Of a stretch of DNA of 20,269 bases, positions 3,046 to 19,100 are shown piece by piece (within the stretch, counting starts at the first letter, position 1; the number at the start of each line of letters is the position of its first letter). Source of the DNA: Baffinella frigidus (Eukaryota; Cryptophyceae; Cryptomonadales; Baffinellaceae); assembly GCA_026770585.1 (NCBI GenBank), contig MU646339.1, positions 515,861 through 536,129 of the forward strand, read 5' to 3'. The notes under the pieces are model-generated. The model was not told where the DNA came from, ran no database searches, and saw only the letters and a program-made list of their open reading frames with translations. The translations under genes and the position numbers were made by a program.

Positions 3046-3146
3046 TCAGCCGTTGAACAGAGGTATGTCCTCTTCAAACCCTGACCGCGGGACCCCGACA
3101 GCCCCGCACTCCCCGCATTCTTGGAGCTCCGGCGTGCGGAGGTCAC
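3046..3146 (-). CDS. Candidate last exon of the beta-helix gene
   Basis: CCTCTCCAG|GT then 32 codons beginning DLRTPELQECGECGAVGVP and ending EEDIPLFNG, stop TGA at 3048-3046. It is non-repetitive and coding-like. It needs phase 1, whereas exon 9 ends in phase 0, so another exon or donor must lie between, or the call is wrong. Confidence 0.3.
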
Positions 3147-3169
3147 CTGGAGAGGTCAGGCGTCAGGGT

Positions 3170-3257
<88 letters not shown>

Positions 3258-6200
3258 GGTCTCGGGTTTCGGGTTTAGGGGAGGCTCGCCTAAGGGGAGG
3301 AGCTTGTTGTCGCGTTCGACGAGCGACGCGTTGACAAACCGGTCCTGTGAGAAACGTCCAAAGTTGACGGATTTGTACCACGCACCCAGAAGGACAACTT
3401 CAGAATAGTCTGGCAAGGCGGGAGTGTGAGCGTCCTGGGAGGCGGTTAGAGTTCAGGGCTGAGGGCTGAGGGTCTCGACGCTTCACTCAGAACACTACGA
3501 GGAACATTCTAAGAGTCAATTATTGGATTATTCCTTAGGAAACACGCCAAAACTCAGCGATTGTTGGTCACGTTACACCGGATATCCGGGGCTGGCGTGC
3601 CTACTAGTCTTTTGGGCGGATACTCCCCTCCCTTGAAGCAGTTTTACCCTCAATTCTGAACCCTAACCGGCTCGCATAAGGGGAGGAGCTTGTTGTCGCG
3701 TTCGACGAGCGACGCGTTGACGAACCGGTCCTGAGAGAAATGTCCAAAGTTGACGGATTTGTACCACGAATCCAGAAGGACAACTTAAGAAATAGTCTGC
3801 CAACCGGTCCTGGACGGCACCAAGGCGGGAGTGTGAGCGCCGAAACCCTGAGCCCCAACCCCTAAAATCGGCATCCCTGGCAACTTAAGACTGAACGGAG
3901 AGTTGCAACTCTCCCAGCAGGGTCCACAAAAAAACAAAAACAGAAGGGTCCGCAAAAACACACGCGTCCACCACGCCAGAGTCTTCGAAGGAGTCGCCAA
4001 AAGTCAATTTCCCCTGAAGGCAGTTGTTTTCAAAAGTCAAATACCGTATCCACATACGGTTTAAAAACATTAACCCCCTCCTCCACTCTGGCGTGGCATG
4101 GGGAGAGACCACGTCAGAGAAGAGCTCCCTGACAAGGTGTTTCTGATGGGTTGTCCACTCCAGTGAATACCCATGCCCATACCCATACCCATGGGTATGG
4201 GCAATCATAAGTATGGGTTATTTACGAAATGCCTTTGCAGACCGCCTCGAGTGGGATGGAGACAGAAAGCGGTGGTAGGTACTTAAGTTGGCAAGGTGGT
4301 TCCAATGGATCATTCTCTTAGGGGTTATTCACAAAAACCCTTCGTAGTCCGATGTGTGGTGGGGTACCAAATCGCCTTTTTCTGAGCACGCAGTGTTTAT
4401 CCGGGGAAACCTATTTTTCTTTCATTTCCTGGCAACGAAAATTGATTAAAAAATTCTTCAATGTTACTAGTAAGAACGAATTGTGTAGCAATTTTCGTTG
4501 CCAGGAAATGAAAGAAAAACAGGTTTCCCCGGATACGTGTGGGATGGGGGCAGACCGCGTCGGCGTAGAGATCCCCGATAATGTGGTTCCGCTGCAGCTC
4601 CACGCTCGCTCCCTCGGTCCACACCTGCCACGCGAGGGGGGTCACGACCTCTTTTAGCACTCAAGTAAACAGCCACGCCAAACCACGCCAGAGGGCTCGA
4701 AACATCCACGTTTGACATCTTTCAGGGGAAATACCCTGAATACTTAAGTCAATGGCGTCAGATCTGACGTGGATAAGGCGTCGGTTTTCCTCGAGCCCTC
4801 TGGCGTGGAGAGGCCTTGACCCGCCCGGCACCATCTATGTGAACTCCCCACGCCCGGACACGAACAGGTTCCCATTGTAGGGTGGGTTTTACCGTCGTAC
4901 TTTCAGCCCGTGAGGGTGGGTTTCAGCCCGTGAGGATGGGTTCGTACTTTCAGCCCGCGAGGGTGGGTTCGACCGTCGTACTTTCAGCCCGTGACAACAA
5001 CCGCAGTGACACACATTTTCTTCAAGAGTCATCGTTATCGTGACCGACGACGATCAAGCGTTTGCTAAGACGTAGATACCGTCCTCGTATTTCTGGACCT
5101 TGCCTTCCAAACCCGGGGGTTGATTCGTGGTTGATAAGCTGCCGCTTCACACCCAGGGCGGGGGGGCAGTCACCTTGAAGACCCTGTGGTTATCCCGAAT
5201 GATCGAATCCCGGATCGAGAGAGATCAGACGTCGTCGACCTCGGACGCCACAGAACCGTCCATTTACTTTCGTGGTACCAACTAATAATTGCTCTGTACA
5301 CTACAAAGACATCTTATCAACCGATATTTCAAACGGATTTTCGGTTGAAATTTCCTGCGAAGCGCACTGTGTGGGGACTGTGTGGGGAGGGTGGGGGAGG
5401 CGCCTTGAAAGCCCAGTGGTTATCCCGGATGATGTAATCCCGGATCGAGAGAGAGCAGAAGTCGTCCACTTCGAACGCCACCCCTCCTCACTAAATACAT
5501 TTAGACCAGGACTCCGTACAAACGCTCCAGTACAAAGAACATCTACATGAATTTAACGGGGAGACCCGATCAATTGAGGCAGAGCTAGACCTCGTGAGCT
5601 CAAGCCATCCTTGGACCAGCTAGGAAGCTGTGGCGTTACACCCAGGGTGGGGCGCGCGCCTTGAAAGCCCAGAGGTTGTCTCGGATGATGGAGTCTCGGA
5701 TCGAGAGAGAGCAGAAGTCGTCGACCTCGAACGCCACGCCGCACCCGTGGATCACGGTTCCTTTGATGAATGTCACGCTGGAGGGTTGAGAGTTCAGGGT
5801 TCAGGGTTCAGGGTTCAGGGTTCAGAGTTCAGGGTTCGGAGTTCAGGGTTCAGGATTCAGGATTCAGGGTTCATGGTTCAGTGTTTAGGGTTGGGGATTA
5901 GGATCTATGGGCGCCGTAGATCACGCTCCCTTTCACAGACGGCTGGCGGGAAGGGGACTTCACTCAACTGGGAGCTGCGAACGAAACCTCAACCCTAAAC
6001 CCAAACGCAACCCCCTTGTTGCGCGCGCGTGCTTGAGTTCGAGCAACCCCAGTACTCGATGCTCGAACCCACCAAGCACAAGCAACAAAGGGCCTCGGGT
6101 CTCTAGCTCTGCCTGCATAGAACTGGGCTCACCACAAACGCATTTTAGCCGAACTTTTGTACTAGATTTCCTGCGCTAAATGTATTTTATGGCGAGCCCA

Positions 6201-7929
6201 GTTCTACTCAGACAGAGCTAGGTACTCGATTCTCGAACTCAAGCAGACGCGCGCAACAAGGGGCCTCGGGTCTCGAGGCCACCCCCCTGTGGTCCCGAGG
6301 GGGGCCCTAGCGCAACTGCCCCGAAACTAGCCAGGCAACGCTGTCACCATATTCACGGTAGAGCGGGTTTTGCATCTGTGGGCCACGAAAACAACGAAAA
6401 GCAATAATATTGACGGTTTAGGAGAGGGAGAGAGAGAGAGAGAGAGAGAGAGAAAGAAGGAGAGAGGGAGGGAGGGAGGGAGGGAGGTGGTGAGAGAGAG
6501 AAAGAGACAGACAGACAGATTTCCCCACTTCTCCACTACATTATATTGACGGTTTGGTACCAGCGCCGTCAACCTTTGGCGGTGTTTCGTTCTTGTCGCG
6601 TGGCCAACAGAGGTGAAAACCGCTCTACTCTCGAGCCTAGAAACGGGTGATGGCATACAAACCTGCTGCCGAAGACGGGACACGGCGCGCGTCATCCCTC
6701 CCCGCAACAAACACGGTGAAGGAAAAAACAGAAAGGTAAAATTTGACGGTTCTGGCACAACAACGTCAACTTGAACCACTTTTTCAATATTTCGGCGGCC
6801 AACTTCTCAGCACACCACACGAGGCTCAATTTAAACTCGGGGTTGAAATTATGTAGCAATTTTTATGTGTCTGGTCGGATAGAAAGACTCGATACACACT
6901 TTGTGTGTAGGCACGTAACCAACTTCCATACAAAACGGTACAATCGACTTTTATTCTGGGTGTATGGGTAGCCTCGTGTGGCTCTACGGACCTGGTGCCG
7001 AAGACGGACACGGCGCTCGTCAGCCCTCCTCGCAGCTCCGAATCCTGCTCACCCGCGCGTACCACACTTTCATTCTAGAGTCAAAGACGTTTACTCTAGA
7101 GCTTCCTTTAGCACAGAGACGTTTATTTACACCAGCTTGCTGCAAAAGCTCCCACACGCTTCAGATTCCCTAGTGCCACAAGCTAACGCCAGCGGACCAC
7201 TTAAGTCCCTCGCTGGAGAGGGACTTACCAGCTCTAAAACGATTTAAAAATCAGGACTTTTAAAGTACTAAAAAAATCTATTATAACTTTTTTACAGAGT
7301 CGTGTCCAATCTAAGTGGTCCACTGGCGTTAGCTTTTTGCATGACCCCCCCCCCCGAGCTCCGAATCCTGCTCATCCGCGCGTACGATACCGTTATGATA
7401 GAGTTTCCTGTGCGGGAGGGACGTGTACTCTAGAGCTTCCTGTAGCTCAAAATTAATGGTGAGCCCGGGCTCCTTTTCGCTCCAAAGTTGACGGATGTAT
7501 ACCGCGAATCCAGCGTGTCAACTTGAGAATAGTCGGTCAAGACGGCTGAGGCAGAGCTAGGAGACCTGACAGTCGAGGGTAGCGTGGTACAAAGCCGTCA
7601 ACTTTGGAGCGGAAAAGATCCCGGGCTCAACAGATTGGTGAGCCCAAACAGACTGAGATAGCGCTAGGAGACCTGACAGTCGAGGGTGGTTGGGCTCGTT
7701 TTCGCTCCAAAGTTGACGGGTTTGTACCGCACACCCAGAACATCCACTTGAGAATTGTCCGTGAGGTAGAGCGAGGACCTGACAGTCGAGGGTAGCGTGC
7801 GCGCTGACGTAGATCAGCGTGTCCACTTCGTCTCCTGGTGCGGTTCAGGGTTTGGTTTTTAGTTTTTGGTTTTTAGGGTTTAGGGTTTAGGGTTTAGGGT
7901 TTAAGGTTTAGGGTTTAAGGTTTAGGGTG

Positions 7930-7982
<53 letters not shown>

Positions 7983-10900
7983 CGTGTGTGTGTGTGTGTT
8001 GACGAGAGGACCTTGCATGATACCACGAACCGGACACAAAATCCCTTTACAGGATGCGTGTGGTGACAAGAGACCCGTGAGTGATACAGCGATTTTCACA
8101 TCTGTCGGCCACGGGTTGTTTTTAAAACAATGGCAAAACTTGACAGTTTAGTACCAGCATCGTCAGAGTTTGGCTTTGTGTTATTGTTTTGGAGTGGCCA
8201 ATCGATGTGGAAACCGCTCTACTTCTCAAGAATCTCTTGGGAGACCTGAACCCGAAACCCCGAACCCCATGAACCCTCAATCAGGGAGGCCTAAACCCTA
8301 CACCCTAAATCCTATCACCCCTCAACCAGCGAGACCTAAACCATAAACTCTAAACCCTGAACCCGTGGAACCCTAAACCAGGGAGTCCCCACACCCTGAA
8401 CCCTACACCCTATTCACCCTAAACCGGGGAGACTTAAACGCTGTGGACCCTAAAAGAGGGAGACCTACACCCTAAACCTTAAACCCTGTTGACCCTAAAC
8501 CAGGGAGACTTCAACACTATTAACCCTAAATCCTATTACCCCTCACCCAGCGAGACCTAAACCCTAAACACTTAACCCTAAACCCTATCAAGCCTAAACC
8601 AGGGAGTCCTACACCCTGAACCCTACACCCCATTTACCGTAAACCGGGGAGACTTAAACACTATTGACTCTAAAAGAGGGAGACCTACACCATAAACCTT
8701 AAACCTTGTTGACCCTAAACCAGGGAGCCTTCAACACTATTACCCCTAAAGCCTAAAAGAGACCTACACCCTAAACCTTGAACTCTATTCACCCGAAACC
8801 CCGAAAACGTGAGCGTCGTCGGGGACTGGAAACGGAACCCCAAACCCGAAACCCGAAACCCGAAACCCGAAACCCTAAACCCGAAACCCGAAACCCTAAA
8901 CCCGAAACCCGAAACCCCAAACCCGAAACCCGAAACCCTAACCCTTGAACCCCAACCCCCGAAACCGTGAGCATCGTCGGGAACTGGGAGGCGGGGTTTC
9001 TCCTCCTGGTTTCGGGTTTCGGGTTTGGGGTTTAGGGTTTAGGGTTTAGGGATAAGGGTTAAGGGTTTAGGGATGAGGGTTAAGGGTTTCGGGTTGAGGA
9101 TTTAGGGCTCGGGGGTTCGGGGTTTCGGGTGTAGGGTGTAGGGTTTCGGGTTTAGTGTTTAGGGTGCGTAACTGTCGATTTAGGGTGTAGGGTTTACCTG
9201 GACGTTACGGGTTTATGATTCACCTGGAACCTTAGGGTTTAGGGTTTAGGGTTTAGGGTCGAAGGTTTAGCTGGACCCTTGGGGTTTAGGGTTTAGGGTT
9301 TAGGGTTTAGGGTTTACATGTACGAGGCAGTTTCGCATCCGCAGCAGCGGCGCCCGGCACGGCCGCAGCGCCTCCACTCTGCAGGGTTAGGGTTAGGGGT
9401 TTAGGGTATAGGGTTTAGGGTATAGGGTATAGGGTATAGGGTATAGGGTATAGGGTTTAGGGTTTGGGGTTCAGGGTTTAGGGTGTAGGCCGCAGCGCCC
9501 ACACCGTGCGAGCCAGGGGGGGGGGGTCTGGGATCCCTGATCGCCCACAAGATCTAATCTAACTTCGGAACCAGCCAGATTATCTGCCGCTGTCTTAGGC
9601 TTCCGACACCGAAGATAAGAATGTGTATGCTATTTTAGGCAAACAATGATGCTATATTATGCCTTTTTACGTGGACAGATTCTGGCATGTTCCGAGATGA
9701 AATCGCGGCGAGTATTTTGGCAAAATACTCCACGGCAAAAAAAATTACTGCACAAATGGATCATTCTAGTATTTATGAAAGTATTTGTGCGGTAAACTTC
9801 GTAGCCGGTGACAATTTTGCCAAAATACTCGTCCGGATGAGATCTAGCTGCGCCATAGTCGGCTAGACGGACCATCATTAAGTTGACAGTCTGGGTGAGT
9901 GGCGCCGATTCGTCAACTTTAGAGGAAAAAGAGCCCGGGCTCACCATGTCAACTTTAGAGCGAAAAAGAGCCCGGGCTCACCATGTCAACTTGAGAGCGA
10001 AAAAGAGCCCGGGCTCACCAACATGGTGAGACCGAATCAGAGCTTGGAGAGAGGATCAAAACACTTGACTTCGGAGGGCGGGTGGGAGGGATCCAGGCAC
10101 GGCTCATCAGCGCTCCGGGCGGGAGGGAGGGATCTCATCGCGGCGAGTATCTATGATAAATACTCAAAGGCAACGAAATTTACTACACAAATCGATCATA
10201 CTAGTAGTTATTAACACATTTGTGTAGTAATTTTCGTTGCCGGTGCGTATTTATCATAAATACTCGTCAGGATGAGATCCACGATTAGCCGTGCGTGGAT
10301 CCCTCCCTCCCGTCCGGCTAATCAGAGCCCCAGATCGAGAGTCGGTCAAGCTTACGCCTCAGACCCGAGCGCCCCACAGCAGTCGACTAAATAAATATCC
10401 TAGTACAAACCCTGCCGAGTTTACTCAGCTTCCACGTACAAAACCTCCTGGTACAAGCCTGCCCAGATTACTCATCCCCCAAGTTCAATACAAAACGTTG
10501 ACTCAAGGGGTTAGTCAACCGTCGACTAACCAGGTCAGTCAACCGTCGCACGAGGAAGAAAAAAATTCAGACCCGAGCTCGGGGAAGTCGTTGCCCTTGA
10601 AGCCCTCCTCCTCCCCCCCAAGCTGGATCAGCGCTGGGGCCGCCTGCCCGGTCCCGCACCCCTGCCGAGGAGACAGCGCGGTTACCGCCTGCAACCGCCC
10701 CCTTCATGTGGGGTGCCCTCGGAATGCATGCTTCCCAAAATCTACCCCCCAGAACCCTACCTCTGTCTCACTCTATTTAGGCTGGTTTATATATATATAT
10801 ACATATACATATATATATATACCTCATACTTTCCCACAGCTTTCTGTGAAAAACTTTATCAGGATCGGGGTCCGTTACCCCCCCCCCCAGTTTTCGACCT

Positions 10901-12795
10901 GTTGTCGGTCCAAAAACTGCGAGAGAGCGAATTTTCGGAAGCATTCAAGGAGTGTAAGTTCCAGCCCTCCTCCTCCCCTCCAAGCTGGATCAGCGCTGGC
11001 GCAGCCTGCCCGGTCCCGCATCCCTGCTAGCCGAGGATGTGTGTCTTGGGTTACGAAACTTCAGGGCAAAAGGGCAACTGAAATGCGTGTCTGACGAGAG
11101 CTCGACTCAAGCCTCAAGGGCCTGTTTTGGACCTGTATCGAGAGTAATACTAGCTCTGTTTCACTCTGGTAGACTAAATCGATTATGTCTTTTTATTCAA
11201 CTCAAAACGCCACAAGTCATCTTTTCCAAAGGGATTTGTCAACTTTTGGCGAACCGTTGCGATCTGGTCTCGCCAAATTGGCGAGACCAAATCGAGTGGA
11301 ACAGAGCTAGTAATAGAGAAGAAGACGAGAACTGGATCAGCCAGCCCGGGCCCGCACCCCTGTACGCCGAGAAAAGGAATGAAGTTTGTTGGACCACCCT
11401 GGAGGCAATTTATGGGCAAATTGATGATTTCTTAAGCCAACTCCCATAAAAATGCACCCAGAATCCGAGTGCATTTGTGGGAGATTGACTTAAGATTTAC
11501 CCCCAAGTTGACTCCAGGGTGGATACCCATAACATTGCGAACTCCTGGGTGTTGCAGGGGTCTCAAACGAGGCTCAAAACCTCTAAAACCCTGAGAAATT
11601 TCAACCCGTTTTGGGCCCCTGGATTCCGGAATCCAGCGGAGGAGACAGCGCGGTGATCACCTTGAACCGCCCTTCATTTGGGGTGCCCTCGGAGTGAACT
11701 TAAGGAGTTTAGTGTTTGGGGTTTAGGGTTTAGGGTTTCCGCTCTGTAACCCTCCGAGCTTCGTGGGTTTATCGGTGTGCAATTAAATTAATTGCTTCTC
11801 GGCGTGCAGGGATGCTTCTCGGCGTGCAGGGATGCGGTAGCACGGTAACCGCTTTCGACCGTTCCCCCTTGATTTCGGGTGCTCTCGGAATGCACACAAG
11901 TTTGGCACGTGTGAGCACACAAGGTGCGTTGATTACGGATCGAAACCAACATGACCACCATGTATTCCCTTCCGTGAAGGCCTTGTAAGACAAGGACCTG
12001 GCCACAAACAAAAACGAGAGTCTTCTGAGCAGAGGGGAGAGCAAGCGTACCGCAATCTCGCACTCGAGCAGCTCCCACTCGCCCCCCATCACCGTCAGCA
12101 CCCCCACGCCCCCATACGGACTCTCCTCGCTGCGATGGTTGACCAGCGCAACATTCTGCAGCAGCCCCCCATCCCCCCCGCGCCACCCCTCGCACATCAC
12201 CACCTCCCCGTACGGAAAGTCCCCCCCGCGCCCTGCGGTTCCGATCTCCACGCCCTCCGGGTCGTCCCCAGCTGCGAGAACGTCGGCGTCGTACTCCAGG
12301 CCGCGGCACGCATTCCACGCGTCTCCGCCGTCGAGGTCCCAGGAGCCGGCGATGCGCACCTCGCCCTCACCCCCGCGCGCGCCACGCGTGCCGTAGCTGG
12401 CGCCCACGAGCGTCATGGGAACGCCGGCGCTGCGATCGAGCACCCGGAGCGGAGGCGCGGTTCCCACCGTCAGCTTCTCTGGCGTGGTGAGATGCTTCCC
12501 AGGCTCCACCACCACCTGGCCGGAGGGTCTGTGTGTCAATGCGATACTCAAGATCCCCGAACTCTTAGAGGGGGGGCCATGATCTAGGAAGCGCCGTACC
12601 CGCATGAGCGGGTCCGGAGGGCAGGAATGACACCTTGCCGCCGCCACGGCCTTGCTGCGCGGCGCTGATGGCATCCGCAAGCGAGGGGAAGTCAGCAGAG
12701 GGGTACTCGAGCGCCAGCGACTTTGGCAGCGCTCCTCCCAGGGGAGGCGCGAGGAGCACCAAGAGCAGGACAGCTACCCGCACTAGATGCACCAT
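3046..12795 (-). CDS. Secreted right-handed beta-helix repeat protein (multi-exon)
   Basis: Proposed exons, in transcript order: 12795-12634, 12515-12051, 10717-10686, 9378-9324, 7834-7779, 7044-6992, 5777-5660, 4624-4556, 3730-3668 and possibly 3146-3046. It begins MVHLVRVAVLLLVLLAPPLG, a signal peptide. ADFPSLADAISAAQ and VVVEPGKHL follow, typical of the N-cap of pectate-lyase-like beta-helix proteins. The rest is made of turns such as GGVGVLTVMGGEWELLECEI, RVEALRPCRAPLLRMRNCL, DTLIYVSAHATLDCQ, VTFIKGTVIHGCGVAFEV, SLSIRDSIIRDN and ASVELQRNHIIGDLYADA. These look like NosD / CASH-type parallel beta-helix repeats. Phases agree across most junctions. They disagree between 9324 and 7834, and between 3668 and 3146, so at least one exon is missing or the end is wrong. 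No catalytic residues can be assigned; carbohydrate binding or lysis is possible but not shown. Confidence 0.65.
3170..3260. repeat. GGGTTGA heptamer tract
   Basis: About 12 near-perfect GGGTTGA units, a variant of TTTAGGG, then GGGTCTCGGGTTTCGGGTTT. On the other strand it gives a spurious STLNPQP peptide. Confidence 0.88.
3283..3344 (-). pseudogene. Second copy of beta-helix exon 9
   Basis: CTCACAG|GACCGGTTTGTC.. encodes DRFVNASLVERDNKLLPLGE then P, but the donor GT is lost (CCTCCC). The reading frame runs on into a GGGTTGA heptamer tract, giving a repetitive STLNPQP peptide. Its own E-family core (3350-3412) lies upstream, so exon plus element were copied together. Confidence 0.62.
3350..3412. 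repeat. Family E core next to exon 9 copy
   Basis: TCCAAAGTTGACGGATTTGT and ACAACTTCAGAATAGTCTGG match the E-family interior. A second such core is at 3738-3800 beside the complete exon 9. Confidence 0.65.
3668..3730 (-). CDS. Beta-helix gene exon 9
   Basis: The acceptor is TTCTCTCAG|GACCGG and the donor GAGCCG|GTTAGG. The 63 bp encode DRFVNASLVERDNKLLPLCE then P, phase 0 in and out, continuing exon 8 (..DLYADA). An E-family core (3738-3800) lies just upstream. Confidence 0.6.
3801..3809 (-). repeat. Copy of exon 9 acceptor edge
   Basis: GCCGTCCAG|GACCGGTTG repeats only the first nine bases of exon 9, with its AG. The E-family core separates it from the complete exon at 3730. Confidence 0.5.
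3971..4096. mobile_element. Family D foldback element D1 (126 bp)
   Basis: CCACGCCAGAGTCTTCGAA is inverted as CACTCTGGCGTGG. The length equals D2 at 4683. Confidence 0.72.
4182..4201. repeat. 20-bp perfect palindrome
   Basis: CCCATACCCATGGGTATGGG, preceded by further CCCATA units. Confidence 0.8.
4243..4255 (-). repeat. Possible copy of exon 8 donor edge
   Basis: CCACTCGAGGCG|GTCTGC resembles the exon 8 donor GACGCG|GTCTGC, and the CCATCCCAC text found after the real donor is next to it. It is short, so weak. Confidence 0.35.
4316..4359. mobile_element. Half of a family C element
   Basis: CTTAGGGGTTATTC and CCCTTCGTAGTCCGATGTGTGG match the reverse of a C left end. The other half is not seen. 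Confidence 0.6.
4398..4535. mobile_element. Family F foldback element F4
   Basis: TATCCGGGGAAACCTATTTT is inverted as GTTTCCCCGGATA, with long arms including CTGGCAACGAAAATT, 138 bp. It lies 20 bp from the exon 8 donor. Confidence 0.84.
4556..4624 (-). CDS. Beta-helix gene exon 8
   Basis: The acceptor is TGGCAG|GTGTGG and the donor GACGCG|GTCTGC. The 69 bp encode VWTEGASVELQRN-HIIGDLYADA, phase 0 in and out, joining exon 7 (..LWAFK) directly. An F-family element starts 20 bp downstream of the donor (4535). Confidence 0.68.
4683..4808. mobile_element. Family D foldback element D2 (126 bp)
   Basis: CCACGCCAGAGGGCTCGA is inverted as TCGAGCCCTCTGGCGTGG. Confidence 0.8.
4879..4998. repeat. Short irregular tandem repeat
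   Basis: Units of GTACTTTCAGCCCGTGAGGG with GTGGGTT and CCGTC, three to four copies. The surrounding 4809-5160 shows no gene I can support. Confidence 0.7.
5174..5255 (-). pseudogene. Copy of exon 7 (c), 5'-truncated with a stop
   Basis: It encodes VASEVDDV, then TGA in place of the Cys codon, then SLSIRDSIIRDNHRVFK, ending AAG|GTGACT. This copy alone has a GT donor, but the reading frame is broken. Confidence 0.68.
5404..5486 (-). pseudogene. Copy of exon 7 (b), 5'-truncated
   Basis: It encodes GVAFEVDDFCSLSIRDYI, then IRDNHWAFK, followed by GCGCCT. The open frame is kept, but the first third of the exon is missing. Confidence 0.68.
5660..5777 (-). CDS. Beta-helix gene exon 7 (complete copy)
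   Basis: The acceptor is CCTCCAG|C. The 118 bp complete a Ser codon and encode 39 residues: VTFIKGTVIHGCGVAFEV, DDFCSLSIRDSIIRD, NLWAFK. It ends AAG followed by GCGCGC, so the donor is GC, unlike the GT of the other exons. It is the strongest beta-helix exon. Confidence 0.7.
5781..5905. repeat. GGGTTCA heptamer tract
   Basis: Units GGGTTCA, GAGTTCA and GGATTCA lie directly against the acceptor of beta-helix exon 7 at 5777, so the tract supplies the pyrimidine-rich intron end on the minus strand. Confidence 0.85.
6103..6221. mobile_element. Family E element E1 between 50-bp direct repeats
   Basis: CTAGCTCTG is inverted as CAGAGCTAG, with inner arms AGAACTGGGCTCACCA and GGCGAGCCCAGTTCT. GTACTCGAT..CAACAA.GGGCCTCGGGTCTC stands at 6052-6102 and again at 6222-6275. 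Confidence 0.78.
6423..6516. repeat. GA-rich microsatellite
   Basis: (GA)n, then GGGA units and GACAGACA. It is bracketed by two copies of TATTGACGGTTT (6408 and 6543). Confidence 0.85.
6543..6579. repeat. GTTGAC-type hairpin module
   Basis: TTGACGGTTTGGTACCAGCG then CCGTCAACCTTTGG. Related modules are at 6741-6773, 8138-8171, 16982-17024 and 18840-18877. Confidence 0.6.
6663..6707 (-). pseudogene. Copy of exon 6 3' part
   Basis: CGGGGAGGGATGACGCGCGC continues to CTTCGGCAGCAG|GTTTGT. It matches exon 6 but carries one extra base, which shifts the frame. The donor GT is kept. Confidence 0.65.
6992..7044 (-). CDS. Beta-helix gene exon 6
   Basis: The acceptor is GTGAGCAG|GATTCG and the donor GCACCAG|GTCCGT. 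The 53 bp encode DSELRGGLTSAVSVFGT plus two bases of a Ser codon (phase 0 in, 2 out). It joins exon 5 (..TLDCQ) and exon 7 (VTFIKG..) in phase. Confidence 0.65.
7179..7339. mobile_element. Foldback element J
   Basis: AAGCTAACGCCAGCGGACCA is inverted as TGGTCCACTGGCGTTAGCTT, with an AT-rich interior, 161 bp. It is flanked by about 80-bp direct repeats that include the exon 6 acceptor (7030-7110 and 7355-7440). Confidence 0.8.
7356..7367 (-). repeat. Copy of exon 6 5' edge
   Basis: GATGAGCAG|GATTCGGAGCTC repeats the acceptor edge at 7044, and about 75 bp of upstream intron are copied with it. Foldback element J (7179-7339) lies between the two. Confidence 0.66.
7566..7586 (-). repeat. Copy of exon 5 donor edge (b)
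   Basis: CCACGCTACCCTCGACTGTC then AG|GTCTCC repeats the last codons of exon 5 (HATLDCQ region) with a GT donor. E-family half elements separate this copy, the one at 7673 and the complete exon. Confidence 0.68.
7673..7688 (-). repeat. Copy of exon 5 donor edge (c)
   Basis: ACCCTCGACTGTCAG|GTCTCC is the middle of three donor-edge copies spaced about 107 bp apart (7566, 7673, 7779). Confidence 0.66.
7779..7834 (-). CDS. Beta-helix gene exon 5
   Basis: The acceptor is CACCAG|GA and the donor TGTCAG|GTCCTC. The 56 bp finish a codon and encode DEVDTLIYVSAHATLDCQ (phase 1 in, 0 out), a clear beta-helix turn. The upstream phase partner is not identified. Confidence 0.65.
7860..7930. repeat. TTTAGGG tract
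   Basis: TTTTAGGGTTTAGGG units, about eight, run straight into a GT microsatellite. Confidence 0.88.
7928..8000. repeat. (GT)n microsatellite
   Basis: About 35 GT dinucleotides with a few GC changes. Open frames across it are artefacts. Confidence 0.93.
8306..8746. repeat. 221-bp tandem repeat, two units, of CCCTAAA-type text
   Basis: TAAATCCTAT.ACCCCTCA.CC opens units at 8306 and 8527, and a third start (TAAAGCC) is at 8747. Units contain CAGGGAG and GGGAGACCTACACC between CCCTAAA motifs. Confidence 0.78.
8836..8950. repeat. CCCGAAA / CCCTAAA tract
   Basis: About 15 heptamers, mainly AACCCGAAACCC, in C-strand orientation. Confidence 0.88.
8966..8983 (-). other. Possible 18-bp microexon (two copies, here and 8808-8825)
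   Basis: CGCCTCCCAG|TTCCCGACGATGCTCACG|GTTTCG lies in a heptamer tract. A copy, TTTCCAG|TCCCCGACGACGCTCACG followed by TTTTCG, lies about 160 bp lower. A non-repeat island with AG..GT edges in the gap between exons 4 and 5 is suggestive. Its phase (0/0) does not by itself repair the junction, so this is weak. Confidence 0.25.
9006..9322. repeat. TTTAGGG tract, opposite orientation
   Basis: GGGTTTCGGGTTT, then long runs of GGGTTTAGGGTTTA. With 8836-8950 it forms a head-to-head pair around GTGAGCATCGTCGGGAACTG. Confidence 0.88.
9324..9378 (-). CDS. Beta-helix gene exon 4
   Basis: The acceptor is CTGCAG|A and the donor CTGCCTC|GTACAT. The 55 bp complete a codon and encode VEALRPCRAPLLRMRNCL, one beta-helix turn aligned with the last turn of exon 2 (GVLTVMGGEWELLECEI). 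It is embedded in TTTAGGG-type tracts on both sides. It ends in phase 0, which does not fit the next exon found. Confidence 0.58.
9385..9487. repeat. GGGTATA / GGGTTTA tract
   Basis: GGGTATA units (six in a row) mixed with GGGTTTA, just upstream of beta-helix exon 4 on the minus strand. Confidence 0.88.
9488..9504 (-). repeat. Copy of beta-helix exon 4 5' part
   Basis: GTGTGGGCGCTGCGGCC repeats the start of exon 4 (GTGGAGGCGCTGCGGCC). No acceptor AG stands before it, so it is a remnant. A TATAGGG/TTTAGGG tract separates the two. Confidence 0.55.
9693..9844. mobile_element. Family F foldback element F1
   Basis: CGGCGAGTATTTTGGCAAAA pairs with ATTTTGCCAAAATACTCGTC. The centre has CTGCACAAAT..TTTGTGCGGTAA. 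It ends GGATGAGATC. The preceding 9500-9690 shows no gene. Confidence 0.8.
9910..10019. repeat. 37-bp tandem repeat from a family E end (3 units)
   Basis: GTCAACTT.AGAG.GAAAAAGA then GCCCGGGCTCACC, three times, at 9910, 9946 and 9983. Each holds the palindrome GAGCCCGGGCTC. Confidence 0.82.
10131..10279. mobile_element. Family F foldback element F2
   Basis: GATCTCATCGCGGCGAGTAT is inverted as ATACTCGTCAGGATGAGATC-like ends. The centre is TACTACACAAAT..ATTTGTGTAGTA around ACTAGT. GGGAGGGAGGGATC outside is also inverted at 10298-10315. Confidence 0.84.
10280..10600. other. Intron sequence with imperfect short repeats
   Basis: GTACAAA.CCTGCC..TTACTC is repeated at 10413 and 10455. AGTCAACCGTCGACTAACC and AGTCAACCGTCG are at 10513-10548. 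No coding frame matches a family. Confidence 0.4.
10606..10670. repeat. Repeated GC-rich intron segment (copies at 10965-11035 and 11332-11365)
   Basis: CTGGATCAGCGCTGG.GC.GCC then TGCCCGGTCCCGCA.CCCTGC occurs at all three places, the first just below exon 3 of the beta-helix gene. This is intron text copied with the exon edge. Confidence 0.75.
10686..10717 (-). CDS. Beta-helix gene exon 3 (phase-keeping copy)
   Basis: The 32 bp lie between TTCCGAG and GTAACC and encode GTPHEGGGCR (phase 0 in, 2 out). It is the only one of three related copies whose length links exon 2 to exon 4 in phase, joining ..LLECEIA and VEALRPC.. with a typical turn. The call rests on phase and repeat spacing, so it is moderate. 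Confidence 0.45.
10784..10822. repeat. (TA)n microsatellite
   Basis: TATATATATATACATATACA and continuing TA units. Confidence 0.9.
11150..11310. mobile_element. Family E element E8
   Basis: CTAGCTCTGTTTCACTC is inverted as GAGTGGAACAGAGCTAG. The inner palindrome is GGTCTCGCCAAATTGGCGAG, 161 bp. Confidence 0.8.
11394..11522. mobile_element. Foldback element L
   Basis: CCACCCTGGAG is inverted as CTCCAGGGTGG. The inner arms are TTAAGCCAACTCCCATAAAA and TTTGTGGGAGATTGACTTAA, 129 bp. Confidence 0.75.
11661..11687 (-). pseudogene. Diverged copy of beta-helix exon 3 (b)
   Basis: CTCCGAG is followed by GGCACCCCAAATGAAGGGCG and GTTCAAG|GTGATC, 27 bp, GTPNEGRFK. The flanking ACCGCGCTGTCTCCTC matches the copy at 10686. 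Its length would shift the downstream phase. Confidence 0.5.
11850..11883 (-). pseudogene. Diverged copy of beta-helix exon 3 (c)
   Basis: TTCCGAG is followed by AGCACCCGAAATCAAGGGGG and ACGGTCGAAAGCG|GTTACC, 34 bp. It is the most diverged copy and sits closest to exon 2. CTTCTCGGCGTGCAGGGATG is tandemly doubled next to it (11806-11835). Confidence 0.45.
11929..11994 (-). mobile_element. G-type element G3 in beta-helix intron 2
   Basis: The reverse strand reads GTCTTACAAGGCCTTCACGG, then GGTGGTCATGTTGGTTTCGA, as in G1 and G2. Confidence 0.72.
12051..12515 (-). CDS. Beta-helix gene exon 2
   Basis: The acceptor is CGGCCAG|GTGGTG and the donor ATTGCG|GTACGC. Its 155 codons start VVVEPGKHLTTPEKLTVG and end GGEWELLECEIA. 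Joined to exon 1 it gives GRGGGK-VVVEPGK, the usual beta-helix entry strand. It is the longest exon and is rich in Gly. Confidence 0.78.
12634..12795 (-). CDS. Beta-helix gene exon 1 (signal peptide)
   Basis: The 54 codons run from ATG at 12795, with a hydrophobic Leu/Val core at residues 5-18 and likely cleavage near GGALP. It ends GGGK|GTGTCA, phase 0. A 118-bp intron (12516-12633) follows, the only compact, element-free intron in the window. Confidence 0.78.
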
Positions 12796-12901
12796 TCCCG
12801 GCAAGAACGTCGCGCACAGAGGCGAATCCCCCCGGCTTGCTTGGTCAGGACAGGCAAAAGCTGGGAAGAGCCTCGAAGAGGGAAGAGGAGAGCAGGGTAA
12901 G
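12796..12901. promoter_or_regulatory. Shared 5' region of the two divergent genes
   Basis: Only 106 bp lie between the ATG of the leftward beta-helix gene (12795) and that of the methyltransferase (12902). The stretch has no foldback element and no TATA box that I can recognise. Both 5' UTRs and any promoter must fit here or overlap the coding sequence. Confidence 0.55.
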
Positions 12902-13195
12902 ATGAACGACGAGCTGCGGGCGCTGCGCGAGGCACGCGTCGCGCGGCAGGCCGCGAACCCGACCCACTCAGAGGTGGTGCTGGGCGAGGGCGAGTCCCTG
13001 ACGCGCGTCAAGCTCGTCGAGGTGCATGGGCAGGCGCTCGGATCCAGCCTCTGGGAGAGCGGCACGCTCCTCGCGGAATTCCTCGTCTCGCCTGAGGGGC
13101 GTGCGCTCGTGGAGGGAAAGGATCGCGCGATGGAGCTTGGGTGCGGCGTGGGCCTTCCAGGGCTCGCGCTGGCGCTCCTGCTGGGCCGCCGCGAG
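12902..13195 (+). CDS. Methyltransferase exon 1
   Basis: This exon encodes 98 residues from ATG, ending after ..LLGRRE, and carries the LW..L helix and SAM motif I. The donor is GAG|GTACCT, phase 0. Reading on past the donor gives a non-family tail, while joining to 13996 restores the expected VVLTDN strand. The codons are GC-rich. Confidence 0.85.
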
Positions 13196-16100
13196 GTACC
13201 TGGGCGCGGTCAGTTGGTGGCGTGGGCTTTGGGCGCGAGGGCTGCTCTGTTCCTATCCTCTTTCCCCTACGCGGCGCCAGTCGCTTCCGCTCTCAACCGC
13301 GGCTTCAATGATGCTGTTCTTAGTTAAGGCGCAGGATCCGACCTGTTTAAGCTCATGGTTTGGGGTTTAGTGGTTTGGGGTTTAGAAACAACGGAGCAGA
13401 ATGCATCACCACTCTCATCCCGCCGGCCATTCCGCGCCCCCTCAGAGCGCTCGCGCTCTCTCTAGCCGACCCTGCTAAACCTATACGCTGAAACCCTGAG
13501 GAGCGAGGGGGGGGGTGCGTGCTGGCCGTGTTGGCATGTCGAAAGGTCCCTCTGTCCCTAATCACGTCTCGTCCCACCTCTCCTCCTGGCTCGTCGCGGT
13601 CGTGTTTGAAAGTGGATTGACCCGCTTCCCCCCCCGAAAGGTGGTCCTGACGGACAACACGCGGGAGGCGCTAGCGGTCTTACAAGGCCTTCAAGGAATG
13701 GAATACATGGTGGCCATGTTGGTTTCGATCCGTAACACACGCACTTTCTCGCTCTGTCCCTAAGTTCTGACACAATTCGGTCAGGCCTCCCTGGTACAAA
13801 AGGCTTGGCCGAAAACCCGTTCATTCTCCAGAACCGCCCTCTGGAATCCCTCAAGGTCTCTCTGTCCCGAAAGGTGGTGCTCACGGACAACGCGCGTGTC
13901 CCTGGAGCGAGGAGGGGGGTGCGTTGCTGCCGTGTTGGCGTCCCCAAAGGTCTCTCTGCCCCGAACGGTCTCTAAAGGTCTCTCTGTCCCGAAAGGTGGT
14001 GCTCACGGACAACACGCGGGAGGCGCTCGCGCTCGCGGAGCAGAGCATCCTGGCCAACACCCTCGGAGACAGGTACACTTCTCTTCCTTCCGTCTGTCCC
14101 TCCCTTCTATCTCTCCCTCCTCTCTCCCCTTCCCCCCCCACCCTTTCACTCCCCTCCTCTCCCTTCTCACTCCCTTCTCATCCAACACGGGGTGGAGCAG
14201 AGCGTCTTGACCAACACCCTCGGAGACAGGTACCGGTTTCGGTACCTGGAGACAGGTACCGGTTTCAGCGTTTAGGTTCAGCAGGGTCGGCTAGAGACAG
14301 CTTGAGCGCTCTGCCTTGAGGGGGCGCGGAATGGCATCCGGCGGGATGCGAGTGGTGTTGCTAGCGCTCGTGGAGCAGAGCATCCTGGCCAACACCCTCG
14401 GGGATAGGTACCCTACACAAATTCTTTAATATTACTAGCAAGAACGAACCGTGTAGTAATTTTCATTGCCAGAAAATGAAAGAAAAATAGGTTTCCCCGG
14501 ATAAATATTGGCCAACAGCCTCGGAGACAGGTAAGGGTGGACGCCCTAGTTCCGGCGTCAACCTAATTCCGGCATTCCATAGGGTGCTACCGTATGCAAT
14601 ACAGTAGGGTGATACGGGACGCCAGATGTAGGTTGACAGCCTCGGAGACAGGTGCCCTACCTCTGTCTCAGTCTATTCGGGCTCATCTATCTGGTCAGCC
14701 CGGGCTCTTTTCCGCAGGGGTGGGACGACCGTCCAAAGTTGACGGATTTGTACCGCAAACCCAGCATGTCAACTTGAGAATAGTCGGCCAACCCGAGTGA
14801 GGCAGAGCTAGGTGTCCTTGATCTTCCCGCTCTTCGATTCAACCTCGTGACACAAATTCTAGCTCTGCCGCAGTTGCCTTGCCGGACTATTCACAAGTTG
14901 ACAGTCTTTTTGTGTGGTACACATCCGTCAACTTTGGAGTGGAAAAGAGCCCGGGCTCACCAAATTGGTGAGCCAAAAAAGACTGAGACATGGCTATAAG
15001 TTGTCTGGATTAGGAGTGAAGTATTTTGACGGTGTGGCCCCCCCGCGTGGATGTCTCCATGCCCTAACCCCTGAGACCGGCGGCAGGGTGTCGGCAGCGG
15101 AGTTATGCTGGGAGGAGCCGGAGCAAGCCAGGGCGCGATTCGGAGAGTTTGACCTGGTTGTTGCTGCTGACGTCCCTAACCCCCCACTTAGCAGCCACCG
15201 GGGGCTTCACGGATACAGTCCATCTAAACGATTTGTACTAGAATCTTATCCATGTGCGTTGGATTATAACCGCATTTCCCCCGGATATCCGGGGGGGGGG
15301 GGACTCGGCCGCTGCTAAGTGGAAGAATGGCTGCAGGGTGTCGGCAGCGGAGCTATGCTGGGAGGAGCCCGAGCAAGCGAGGGCGCAATTCGGGGAGTTT
15401 GACCTGGTTGTCGCTGCCGACGTGCTCTATCGCCAGGTTTTTGTGATTTTGCTTAACAATGCTGGTATGGTGACTTAAGGCGGCAACCGAGAGTGGTCGG
15501 GTTGACCGTTTAGGGCTTAGGGGCGTTTGACGTTTTTGTCGCTGACGTGCTCTATTGCTAGGTTTCAGGTTCAGGGTTTAGGGTTTAGGGTTTAGGGGCG
15601 TTTGACGGTGTTGTTACTGCTGACGTACTCTATCGCCAGGCACAAACCCTAAACCCTGAACCCGAAGTTTCTAGACTCCAACCACTGGTAGCTACAATGT
15701 TGATGATTTTCTTGGTTCTCCTCCTGCCTGGTTTCATATGCGGAAACAGTATAAAAATACTGTTTTTGGCCACGCGTAAAGTTGATTCCCCCCTTGAAAA
15801 CAAGCCACTTTTGGCGTATCATCACAAAACACGCCAAAAGTGGCTTGTTTTCAAGGGGAGAATCAACTTTACACGTGGCCAAAAACAGTATTTTTATACT
15901 GTTTCCGGAGATAAGGTTGTGTCAGCTATCGCCGGAGTTTCAACGTTGTGGGCCCTGCTTTGACTCCTGATTCCTTTTTTTTAATTTTCTCATACGTTGA
16001 GGGTGCGTCACTTTTTCCGGGAAATAATTTCCCATTGCCGTAGAATCGAGGTGGTTGACGTGAGGGTGTGTGTCGTGCAGAAACTCCTGGCACCACTGGG

Positions 16101-19100
16101 TGGGGTCCGAGATCTTGCAAGGCCTTCACGGAGGGGAACACATGGTGGCCATGTTGGTTTCGATCCGTACTAAACCTTTCTTCTCTCGAGCAGGACCTCC
16201 TGGCACCGCTGCTTGCAACGCTCCTGGCTCTGACACACCCAGGTGTGTACCCACGTCTCCTAGGGCACCACCAAGGACCCTCCCCGCAGCCACCAAGCCG
16301 CAGCGGAGCCCCCCCCGCCACCCCCTAGCCACCAAGGCCACGGCGGAGGACCCCCATACGCGAGATTTACTGCCTAGCTCTGTCTCAGTCTATTTGGGTT
16401 CACCAATTTGGTGCGCGCAGGCCTGTGTTGACCCCAAAGTTGCCGGATGTGTACCGCAACCCCAGCATGTCAACTTACGAACAGGGAGCCACGTCGAATG
16501 AGGCAGAGCTAGAAAACAACAAGCCGCCCGTGTTACACTCGCCCCTAGAAAAAGGAACGCTGGCTTGGTTTCGTGGAACCCCGCAGCGACGATGCTGAGG
16601 GTTTCCGGGGTTTGGTTTAGGAGTTATGTTTTGGTTTAGGGGTCAAGGTTTGGTTGAGCCGTGAGAAATGAGGGTTTGGGAGCCTCACCTGTTTGCTGGT
16701 TGGCTCATCCACGTCGCAGAGGGATGCACCGTGCGAAATGAGGTGTTGGGGGATCCTGGCTGCGACCTAACCATACAGCGGACTTCGAAGGGATTTTGAA
16801 TAACCCCTAAGCGATAATATCTAGGACCCTACGGTAGGCAACCCGTAGGGGCTTAGGGGGGTTCCTACGGATAAGGTAACGGAAACTCGGGCACTGAGTG
16901 CCCGAAAATCCCTTCGTAGCTCTCTGTGTGGGCAGTTGATGATTGTGAAGCTGATTCACACGTGCAGGATCCGTGGAACAATGCCAAACGTTGATAGCAC
17001 GGGTACCTAAACTGTCAACCGTTGGCATTATCTGCTTGTGCAGGGTCCCTGGTGCTGATCAGCTACAAGCAGCGAGCCTCTCCTGTTGTTTGTGGCGTAA
17101 GCTGGTTCACACGAGCACGATCTCATCCGGTCAGGTATTTGATTTAAATGGTTCGGAGTCCCCCCCCGAATGCACGAAATTTACTACACGTTTGATCATA
17201 CTAGTAATAATAAGGGTAGGACGTGACAAACGTGTAGTAAATTTCGTGCATTCGGGGGACTCCGAACTATTTAAATCAAATACCTGACCGGATGAGATCC
17301 CTGGTGCTGATTGGAGCCTCTGTTGTTTGTGACTTGAGCTGATGCACACGGTTTGGTTGAGTCGTGCGAAACCAGGTGTTGGGAGCCTCTACTGTTTCAC
17401 TTGATCAGTTGATGCGTGTGACGTCAGCTCATGCACACGTGCAGGGTCCCTGGTGCTGATCGGCTACAAGCAGCGCATCGCATCCGATCGAAGCTTCTTC
17501 CTCGCGGCTCGCCGGTCCGCGACCCTCTCGCTCTGTGACTATTCGTAAGTTGACATGCTGGCTGTGTCGTACACACCCGTCAACTTTGGAGTAAGAACGA
17601 GCCCCGTCTCACCAAATCGGTGAGACCAGATAGACTGCAGCGCATCGCATCCGATCGAAGCTTCTTCCTCGCGGCGCGCCGGTCCGCCACCCCTCTCTTT
17701 TATTCCCTCTTTTTCCTTCTCTTTTGGAAGAACAGACACCGCCCTACACAGCGGACTTCGAAGGGATTTTAGAACCCACAAGTGATAAGACCTAGGACCC
17801 TACGGTAGGTAACCCGTAGGGACACAGAGAGGTTCCTACTGATGAGGTAACGGAAACTCGGTCACTGAGTGCCCGAAAATCCCTTCGTAGCCCTCTGTGT
17901 GGCAGATGACTACAAAGGGATTCTCGGTGGCTGAGTCACCGAGAATCAGTTAGGATATCCGTAGGAACAACCCTATGTCACTACGGTATTGCCTACCGTA
18001 GAGTCCTACGGATTACTCACTTACGGGTTATTCACTAAGTCCCTTTGTAGTCAGCTGGGTGGCCTTGCCAACGACGCGTTTTTTTTGGACCAGGATCAAC
18101 GTGGCCACCGTGTATGATATCCCTCAAGTGGCGAGTAGGCTTATCCGCCGTACCGTAGGCCCCTAGGACTTGCCTACGATCTCTGCGGGGTCGAATTCCA
18201 CCCCATCGCCACTTAAGGGATGACCTCTCCAGGAGGCCTTGTTTGACTCGGACCTAACCGCCAAACAGGGGCCCTCGAGAAAGCCGTGCACCTCCTCTAC
18301 AGGGGTTGCTCGAAGTCAAGGACACGCACCGCCCCGAGGGTGGTCCTATGCTCCTATGAAACGCCCTAGTGTAGGACCCTAGGGCGGTAACTTGACTTAA
18401 TTTCGAGCAACTCCTGTACCGCCGCAAAGCCCGAAAGTGGTCCGTTGATGCTACAGGGTTACTTTCCTCACGGGGAGGCGCACCCCCCCACGACCCTACA
18501 GTAGGCCTATCTATGGCCCTACGGCGGTCCTAGGGGGGGGCGTGGTTCCCTGTGAGCGAGGTAACCCTGTACAGGTTATGGGAAAGATGGTTTCTGTACA
18601 AAGGTATCTTGTTCATAAGAATCCGCTCCCCCCCCTAGGGCCACCACAGGGCCCTAGGCATGGTCCTACTGTAGGGTCCTAGGAGGGGGCGGTTTCTCAT
18701 GAGCGAGGTACCCCTGTAGTCCCGGTCAGCTGGTATCATTCGCTTTCAGCAAAGTTAATCTCTTTCTGAAAAGTTGATTTCTGTCTCTCGCCGCGCAGGG
18801 CCTTCGCGATAGACCCACGAAAAGAAGGAAACACAGCACAAAGTTGACGATTCTGGTACTAAACTGTCAACTTTTGGCGCAGGGCCTTCGAGATAGATGT
18901 CGTGTCCTCCAACACGTCCGAGTCACGCGACGCTTCGGGCGGGAGTAGGACACGACACGGGTCGGGACCAGGACACGACTCCGGACATGGAGTCACCCCT
19001 GATACAGACGAGGGAAAAGGTGCCGCTGGCGAAGATGGGGAGGGTGGGAATGGCTCCAATGATGTGGATGGCTCCAATGGCTTCAATGGCTCAAGTGGGG

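Follow-up and report, generated by a model that had tools for sequence, protein, structure and literature searches.

New introns of Daphnia carry direct repeats of 4–12 bp at the exon ends together with internal repeats, which have been attributed to the repair of staggered breaks, with repeated events at a single site (PMC4202315). For rice, patch-mediated break repair has been invoked to explain insertions that combine a tandem duplication with filler (Vaughn and Bennetzen, 2014, via PMC7407515), and tandem duplication of AGGT has been described as a further route to new introns (PMC3443670). Introners, small elements of which some have inverted ends, occupy introns of aquatic protists, and a word search of the introner survey gave no mention of cryptophytes (PMC9860276). 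The present analysis concerns a stretch of 20,269 nt (hereafter, the window) from the cryptophyte Baffinella frigidus (assembly GCA_026770585.1, contig MU646339.1, positions 515,861–536,129), in which most internal exon edges of a lysine methyltransferase gene recur as copies in the adjacent introns.

Of these, the Daphnia introns appear to be the closest known footprint, sharing with this locus exon-end repeats, internal intron repeats and recurrent events at one site; here, however, the repeats comprise 12–87 exonic bases with up to five extra copies per edge, and the introns lack a general signature of gain. In qualitative terms, the rice insertions likewise join local duplications to filler from nearby DNA; the duplications described here are found at exon edges, with elements resembling miniature inverted-repeat transposable elements (MITEs) superimposed on them. 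As in AGGT duplication, the duplicated copies contain splice-site sequence, but the extra copy lies within an intron whose ends derive from elsewhere. Unlike introners, the 25 introns analyzed show no general target-duplication signature, and the foldbacks examined are located inside longer introns and inside the exon-edge copies. Among the papers listed by searches of the open-licence literature on introners with long target duplications, on introners in cryptophytes and on exon duplication with staggered breaks and filler, none describes iterated exon-edge copies in its title or the opening of its abstract; as evidence of absence this is weak. In such a cryptophyte, the growth of introns through serial duplication may be followed step by step, with decoy splice sites arising beside the real ones. 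How a spliceosome disregards near-perfect copies of its sites could then be tested directly, and the lengthening of introns is more readily told apart from their creation.

Exon-edge copies in the methyltransferase gene and elsewhere

Six plus-strand exons (Table 1), delimited by the splice sites presumed to be in actual use, join to encode a 292-residue protein. Residues 36–194 match PF10294 (lysine methyltransferases; E = 7.2e-28, 97.9 bits against a cut-off of 21), the gene being the methyltransferase of an initial annotation of the window. No second copy of the gene was detected, exon 1 having a single match in the searchable genome, where masked parts cannot match. The 382-Mb assembly (1364 contigs) is heavily masked, including the flanks of the window: among 20 random 10-kb stretches, 14 were entirely N, three partly N and three unmasked.

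According to the initial annotation, almost every exon of two unrelated genes on opposite strands has additional copies of an edge that keep AG or GT. Self-comparison of the methyltransferase gene revealed direct copies at the edges it had listed; the intronic ones are termed decoys below. The acceptor edge of exon 2 occurs three times (AAAG/GTGGT, with the slash at the junction, at 13637, 13870 and 13992) and its donor edge six times (14068, 14225, 14251, 14403, 14526 and 14647, of which the match at 14251 covers only about 12 bases); exon 3 has two acceptor and three donor edges, and two edges each were found for exon 4, the exon 5 donor and exon 6. These counts agree with those of the annotation, but the exon 5 acceptor, for which two edges had been claimed, is present at 17038 and 17442, in a copy around 17296 that is split by a foldback, and in a weak copy at 16933-16976 (79%). 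GT is not retained by all of the copies, the third exon 3 donor copy reading CCAG/GC.

Each 40-nt edge was matched against the intron it borders and, 200 times, against equally long stretches of other genes' introns, and a copy was counted at p ≤ 0.01 (the floor of the test being p = 0.005). By this measure, 8 of the 10 internal exon edges of the methyltransferase gene have a copy in the adjacent intron, and none was found for the donor edges of exons 1 and 4. When four genes were tiled with 30-mers, a near copy being defined as 25/30 identical bases at most 1.5 kb away, the methyltransferase gene showed near copies for 28/46 30-mers at exon edges, 176/1651 in introns and 16/159 in exon interiors; three shuffled versions of the gene each gave 0/697. 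The corresponding figures for all four genes were 37/248, 400/4019 and 22/547, the intron count consisting partly of the partner copies themselves and of dispersed elements. Local copies are thus not peculiar to exon edges and are found in introns too.

The other three genes encode HSP70 and are designated by their contigs (C62, C226 and C1133). Their exons were set by reading frame and by known HSP70 sequence, and the family search itself matched five, three and two stretches, respectively; the joined exons correspond to HSP70 throughout in C62 and C226 and through exon 3 in C1133, where the frame is lost thereafter, an uncertain third donor was excluded and the 600 nt 5′ of the fourth exon were taken as intron. 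Significant intron copies were found for 2/32 edges in C62, 1/4 in C226 and 1/5 in C1133, so that "almost every exon" does not extend to a general rule. Together with the methyltransferase gene, 12/51 edges have a copy against approximately 0.5 expected; exon-edge duplication is therefore real and recurrent in this genome, with the methyltransferase gene as an extreme case. The last donor edge of the C226 stretch, which lies outside this count, has three copies, and the same anatomy was seen in a putative, coding-looking gene met at random (locus L020). Another HSP70 gene, L037, has a single intron and gave no copy on self-comparison.

Two details of the HSP70 loci may be added. At 3097-3671 of locus L035 (C226:183200-187200), the donor edge of an HSP70 exon is present in four copies. 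Half of a foldback family follows each of the first three, and each further copy begins approximately at the central palindrome of the element, as if amplified as a unit. In L034 (C62:290000-297000), a stretch with 17 HSP70 exons, CCCTAAA-like heptamers make up the greater part of many introns.

In its density of local repeats, the window does not stand out. Six of the 20 random stretches could be seen at least in part; with masked bases included, they contain 0, 1, 7, 12, 18 and 38 local direct repeats per 10 kb, compared with 19.7 in the window. After removal of low-complexity and heptamer repeats, a filter applied in the boundary, gap, foldback and split-copy analyses below, 110 direct-repeat pairs remained, with a median length of 48 nt (10–90% range, 29–116), a median gap of 188.5 nt and a median identity of 90.6%.

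Foldback elements and gap fillers

MITEs are short foldback elements with inverted termini and short target duplications. The foldbacks analyzed here agree with this type, of which PMC7789003 gives a short account, in their foldback form, their inverted termini and, where readable, target duplications of 2–4 bp, and no difference was found. Among 28 cases in which one of two local copies is split, five inserts have inverted ends, compared with 0.5% in the control; for four of these five, comparison of the intact with the split copy places a foldback within one copy, with the target duplications GATC, CC, AGTG and ATTT. When the foldback at 17119-17299 is removed, 35 of the 54 nt over which its joined flanks align with the real exon 5 acceptor edge are intronic; this decoy was therefore longer until the foldback cut it. 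Among 88 foldbacks, whose BLAST-derived ends may be inexact by a few bases, 17 directly adjoin an exact repeat of 2 bp, against 6.3 expected; exact 3-bp and 4-bp repeats show no excess (1 against 1.3 and 1 against 0.4), and a long flanking direct repeat is present at six (0.3 expected). The foldbacks thus appear to be a second, MITE-like layer, separate from the duplications.

Foldbacks, heptamer tracts and GTTGAC hairpins had been annotated between the copies, and they do occur in some gaps, but no special tie to them was found. The frequency of strong hairpins in the gaps of the 110 repeat pairs was 22.7% against 16.1% at random (p = 0.015) at the strictest of four thresholds and did not differ significantly at the three lower ones, and heptamers were rarer than expected (2.7% against 9.6%). 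Telomere-like heptamer filler as a cause of the copies was rejected on this lack of enrichment.

The 15 gaps between neighbouring copies of one methyltransferase edge were compared with the window and the other fetched loci; two stretches separating different edges were also examined and are left out of the counts. Seven are filled by dispersed elements or pieces of them (18814-18876 being so classed by a single other match), three by copies from the same gene, including an inverted one from intron 1, and one by a heptamer tract, and four have no clear source in the window or the fetched loci. Such use of partial elements and local copies as filler would point to repair synthesis and not to transposition.

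A short dispersed motif around GGTGGCCATGTTGGTTTCGATCCGT was also observed, at 2288-2317, 13700-13726 and 16132-16161 of the window, at 1130-1163 and 1355-1383 of L035, and at 9386-9419 and 9698-9731 of L019; two edge gaps contain it, and in L035 it borders a foldback.

Origin of the copies

An explanation that we consider reasonably probable combines recurrent local duplication, selection that keeps the splice-spanning copies, and subsequent, separate insertion of MITE-like foldbacks. The genome would keep generating small local duplications, typically of 30–115 bp with the copies about 190 bp apart, most likely through staggered-break repair or slippage, and some of these would gain filler copied from nearby DNA or from dispersed elements. 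Introns and DNA outside genes are affected too; within exons, duplications would be purged by selection, and those spanning a splice site would survive, with one complete edge and its splice site staying on the exon and the other copy becoming an intronic decoy. Foldbacks with target duplications of 2–4 bp would then enter among the copies, sometimes inside a decoy. For 24 of the 27 exon-edge copies in the four genes, the copy spans the splice junction, the other three being 12, 15 and 17 nt long (the last a decoy split by a foldback at the junction), which fits selection on duplications across the exon edge and is unlike pasted exon pieces. At the exon 5 end, direct repeats (17470-17529 and 17637-17697) enclose a filler of 107 nt, as in staggered-break repair. 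The intronic part of one edge copy measures 88 nt in L034, and that of one in L036 measures 26 nt, which is what plain tandem duplication predicts.

Several observations weigh against this explanation. Most methyltransferase copies end no more than 8 nt from the splice site on the intron side, and the intronic share of the 27 copies averages 0.21 instead of the 0.5 of random placement (z = -5.1, the copies not being independent); erosion by later insertions accounts for one case, that of exon 5, and not clearly for the four exon 2 donor copies. These four are each abutted by a different sequence, and plain tandem duplication does not give such a change of filler from copy to copy. In a strand-blind scan of 286 repeat boundaries (145 pairs from all readable loci), GT stood at the first repeat position 29 times, compared with 7–18 times at other offsets. 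The exon interiors of the methyltransferase gene are no poorer in copies than its introns, because long edge copies extend into the short exons; 16 of the 22 interior cases in the four genes come from this gene, and the contrast between interiors and introns accordingly depends on the others. Finally, the repeat counts outside genes take in dispersed elements.

The short intronic overhangs and the GT excess would be accommodated if duplications were anchored at splice sites by recognition of exon boundaries, for example through an RNA-linked process; exon ends, from the splice site inward, would then be a preferred unit of local duplication, with breaks or template jumps at exon boundaries, and introns would grow by stacking copies of neighbouring edges. 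This seems quite unlikely, given that the HSP70 genes include overhangs of 12 to 88 nt, that a later foldback had concealed a longer intronic part in one case, and that the same boundary scan gave no AG or AC signal; moreover, we know of no mechanism for duplication anchored in this way. A source in assembly error is extremely improbable, as no sign in its support was seen, the copies mostly diverge by 3–22%, the fillers differ and the pattern recurs on other contigs.

Two further explanations were considered. During break repair, pieces of an exon could have served as templated filler for the intron beside it, without any duplication running across the exon itself; nearby-templated insertions are reported for rice (PMC7407515), and the three fillers copied from the same gene, one of them inverted, speak for this reading, but a pasted piece need not include a splice site, which nearly all of the present copies do, with only short exceptions, so that we regard it as unlikely. 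Insertion of foldbacks with very long target duplications (20–135 bp) at exon edges, the mechanism proposed in the initial annotation beside slippage at hairpins, could draw on the seven methyltransferase gaps filled by foldbacks, other dispersed elements or their pieces and on the six long flanking repeats, which exceed expectation. It is nevertheless very unlikely: 82 of the 88 foldbacks score below that level and exact 2-bp adjacent repeats are in excess, comparison of intact with split copies gives target duplications of 2–4 bp, and at 14415-14508 and 17530-17636 the filler corresponds to no more than part of its element family. Foldback-driven long target duplication was thus rejected on gap enrichment, flanks and intact/split comparisons; the iterated duplication of edges that the annotation described is real, and repair or slippage would fit as its source.

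The introns were also examined for traces of creation. In 25 introns, the intron start matched the start of the next exon at a mean of 2.76 positions against 2.78 in the null (5′ side), and the intron end matched the end of the previous exon at 3.40 against 3.38 (3′ side); one intron reached 7/12 matches, against 0.17 such introns expected. No general sign was therefore seen that these introns were created by insertion with target duplication, as for introners, although in introns of great age the signal would have faded. Within the reach of this test, the copies would therefore belong to the lengthening of introns more than to their birth. Two isolated cases are suggestive of an insertion origin: the HSP70 intron after position 4995 of L034 (intron start GTCTTCGAGAG, next exon GTGTTCGAGGG) and one intron of L020.

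Features of the window and further observations

Table 1. Coordinates of the features discussed, counted from the first base of the window (decoy, intronic copy of an exon edge; the 80-94% given for the minus-strand edge copies is the range over both rows).
Feature	Position	Strand	Evidence
Methyltransferase exon 1	12902-13195	+	open frame; joined product PF10294; single genome match
Methyltransferase exon 2	13996-14072	+	joined product PF10294
Methyltransferase exon 3	15337-15436	+	joined product PF10294
Methyltransferase exon 4	16194-16242	+	joined product PF10294
Methyltransferase exon 5	17445-17514	+	joined product PF10294
Methyltransferase exon 6	18883-19169	+	3′ end approximate; beyond conserved domain
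Decoy, exon 2 acceptor edge	13633-13679	+	91% over 47 nt
Second decoy, exon 2 acceptor edge	13847-13896	+	94% over 50 nt, 27 intronic
Decoy, exon 2 donor edge	14194-14233	+	92.5% over 40 nt
Decoy, exon 2 donor edge	14360-14414	+	91% over 55 nt
Decoy, exon 2 donor edge	14508-14533	+	96% over 25 nt
Decoy, exon 2 donor edge	14636-14653	+	94% over 18 nt to exon 2
Decoy, exon 3 acceptor edge	15079-15173	+	91.6% over 95 nt
Decoy, exon 3 donor edge	15517-15565	+	81%
Decoy, exon 3 donor edge, then GC instead of GT	15592-15640	+	82%
Decoy, exon 4 acceptor edge	16073-16098	+	85% over 26 nt
Decoy, exon 5 acceptor edge	17038-17074	+	97% over 37 nt
Decoy, exon 5 donor edge	17637-17697	+	95% over 61 nt
Decoy, exon 6 acceptor edge	18793-18813	+	95% over 21 nt
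Foldback interrupting a further exon 5 acceptor decoy	17119-17299		GATC at both ends; joined flanks align 54 nt, score 27.6
Foldback between exon 3 acceptor copies	15184-15323	+	same family at 341-479, in L019 and in L003
Filler, inverted copy of intron 1 (13407-13495)	14261-14357	+	85.6% over 97 positions, minus strand
Filler, incomplete member of a dispersed foldback family (more complete copy, 4398-4535)	14419-14503	+	89% over 85 nt; 21 matches in 10 records searched
Heptamer filler between exon 3 donor copies	15566-15591		comparison with window and fetched loci
Filler between exon 5 donor copies	17530-17636		107 nt; GTTGAC foldback-family fragment
Direct repeat pair, putative minus-strand gene	3283-3416 / 3669-3803 (3283-3803)	-	93% over 135 nt
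Three copies, putative minus-strand gene	5136-5251 / 5388-5484 / 5644-5740 (5136-5740)	-	78-88%
Edge copies, putative minus-strand gene	10601-10665 / 10963-11027 (within 10601-11894)	-	80-94%
Edge copies, putative minus-strand gene	10661-10728 / 11633-11696 / 11839-11894 (within 10601-11894)	-	80-94%

The second gene of the initial annotation, a beta-helix gene on the minus strand with similarly copied exon edges, was borne out only in its direct repeats, which are present (Table 1); the gene itself stays putative, as none of the seven pieces tested reaches a Pfam cut-off and the best Beta_helix match has E = 0.16. In the repeat near the end of this putative gene, a stretch within 3355-3416 shares 85% identity with one arm of the GTTGAC foldback family. 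The window contains no tRNA and no Rfam family at gathering score.

As regards the source of the assembly, PF02972 (phycoerythrin alpha-chain) has 11 matches in the genome, all above cut-off, and none in 14 control genomes; this family is not known outside cryptophytes. Six of the 11 matches lie on one contig (C225) within approximately 75 kb. Elsewhere in the genome, two full-length HSP70 matches of equal score are arranged in inverted orientation at C709:130108-134621.

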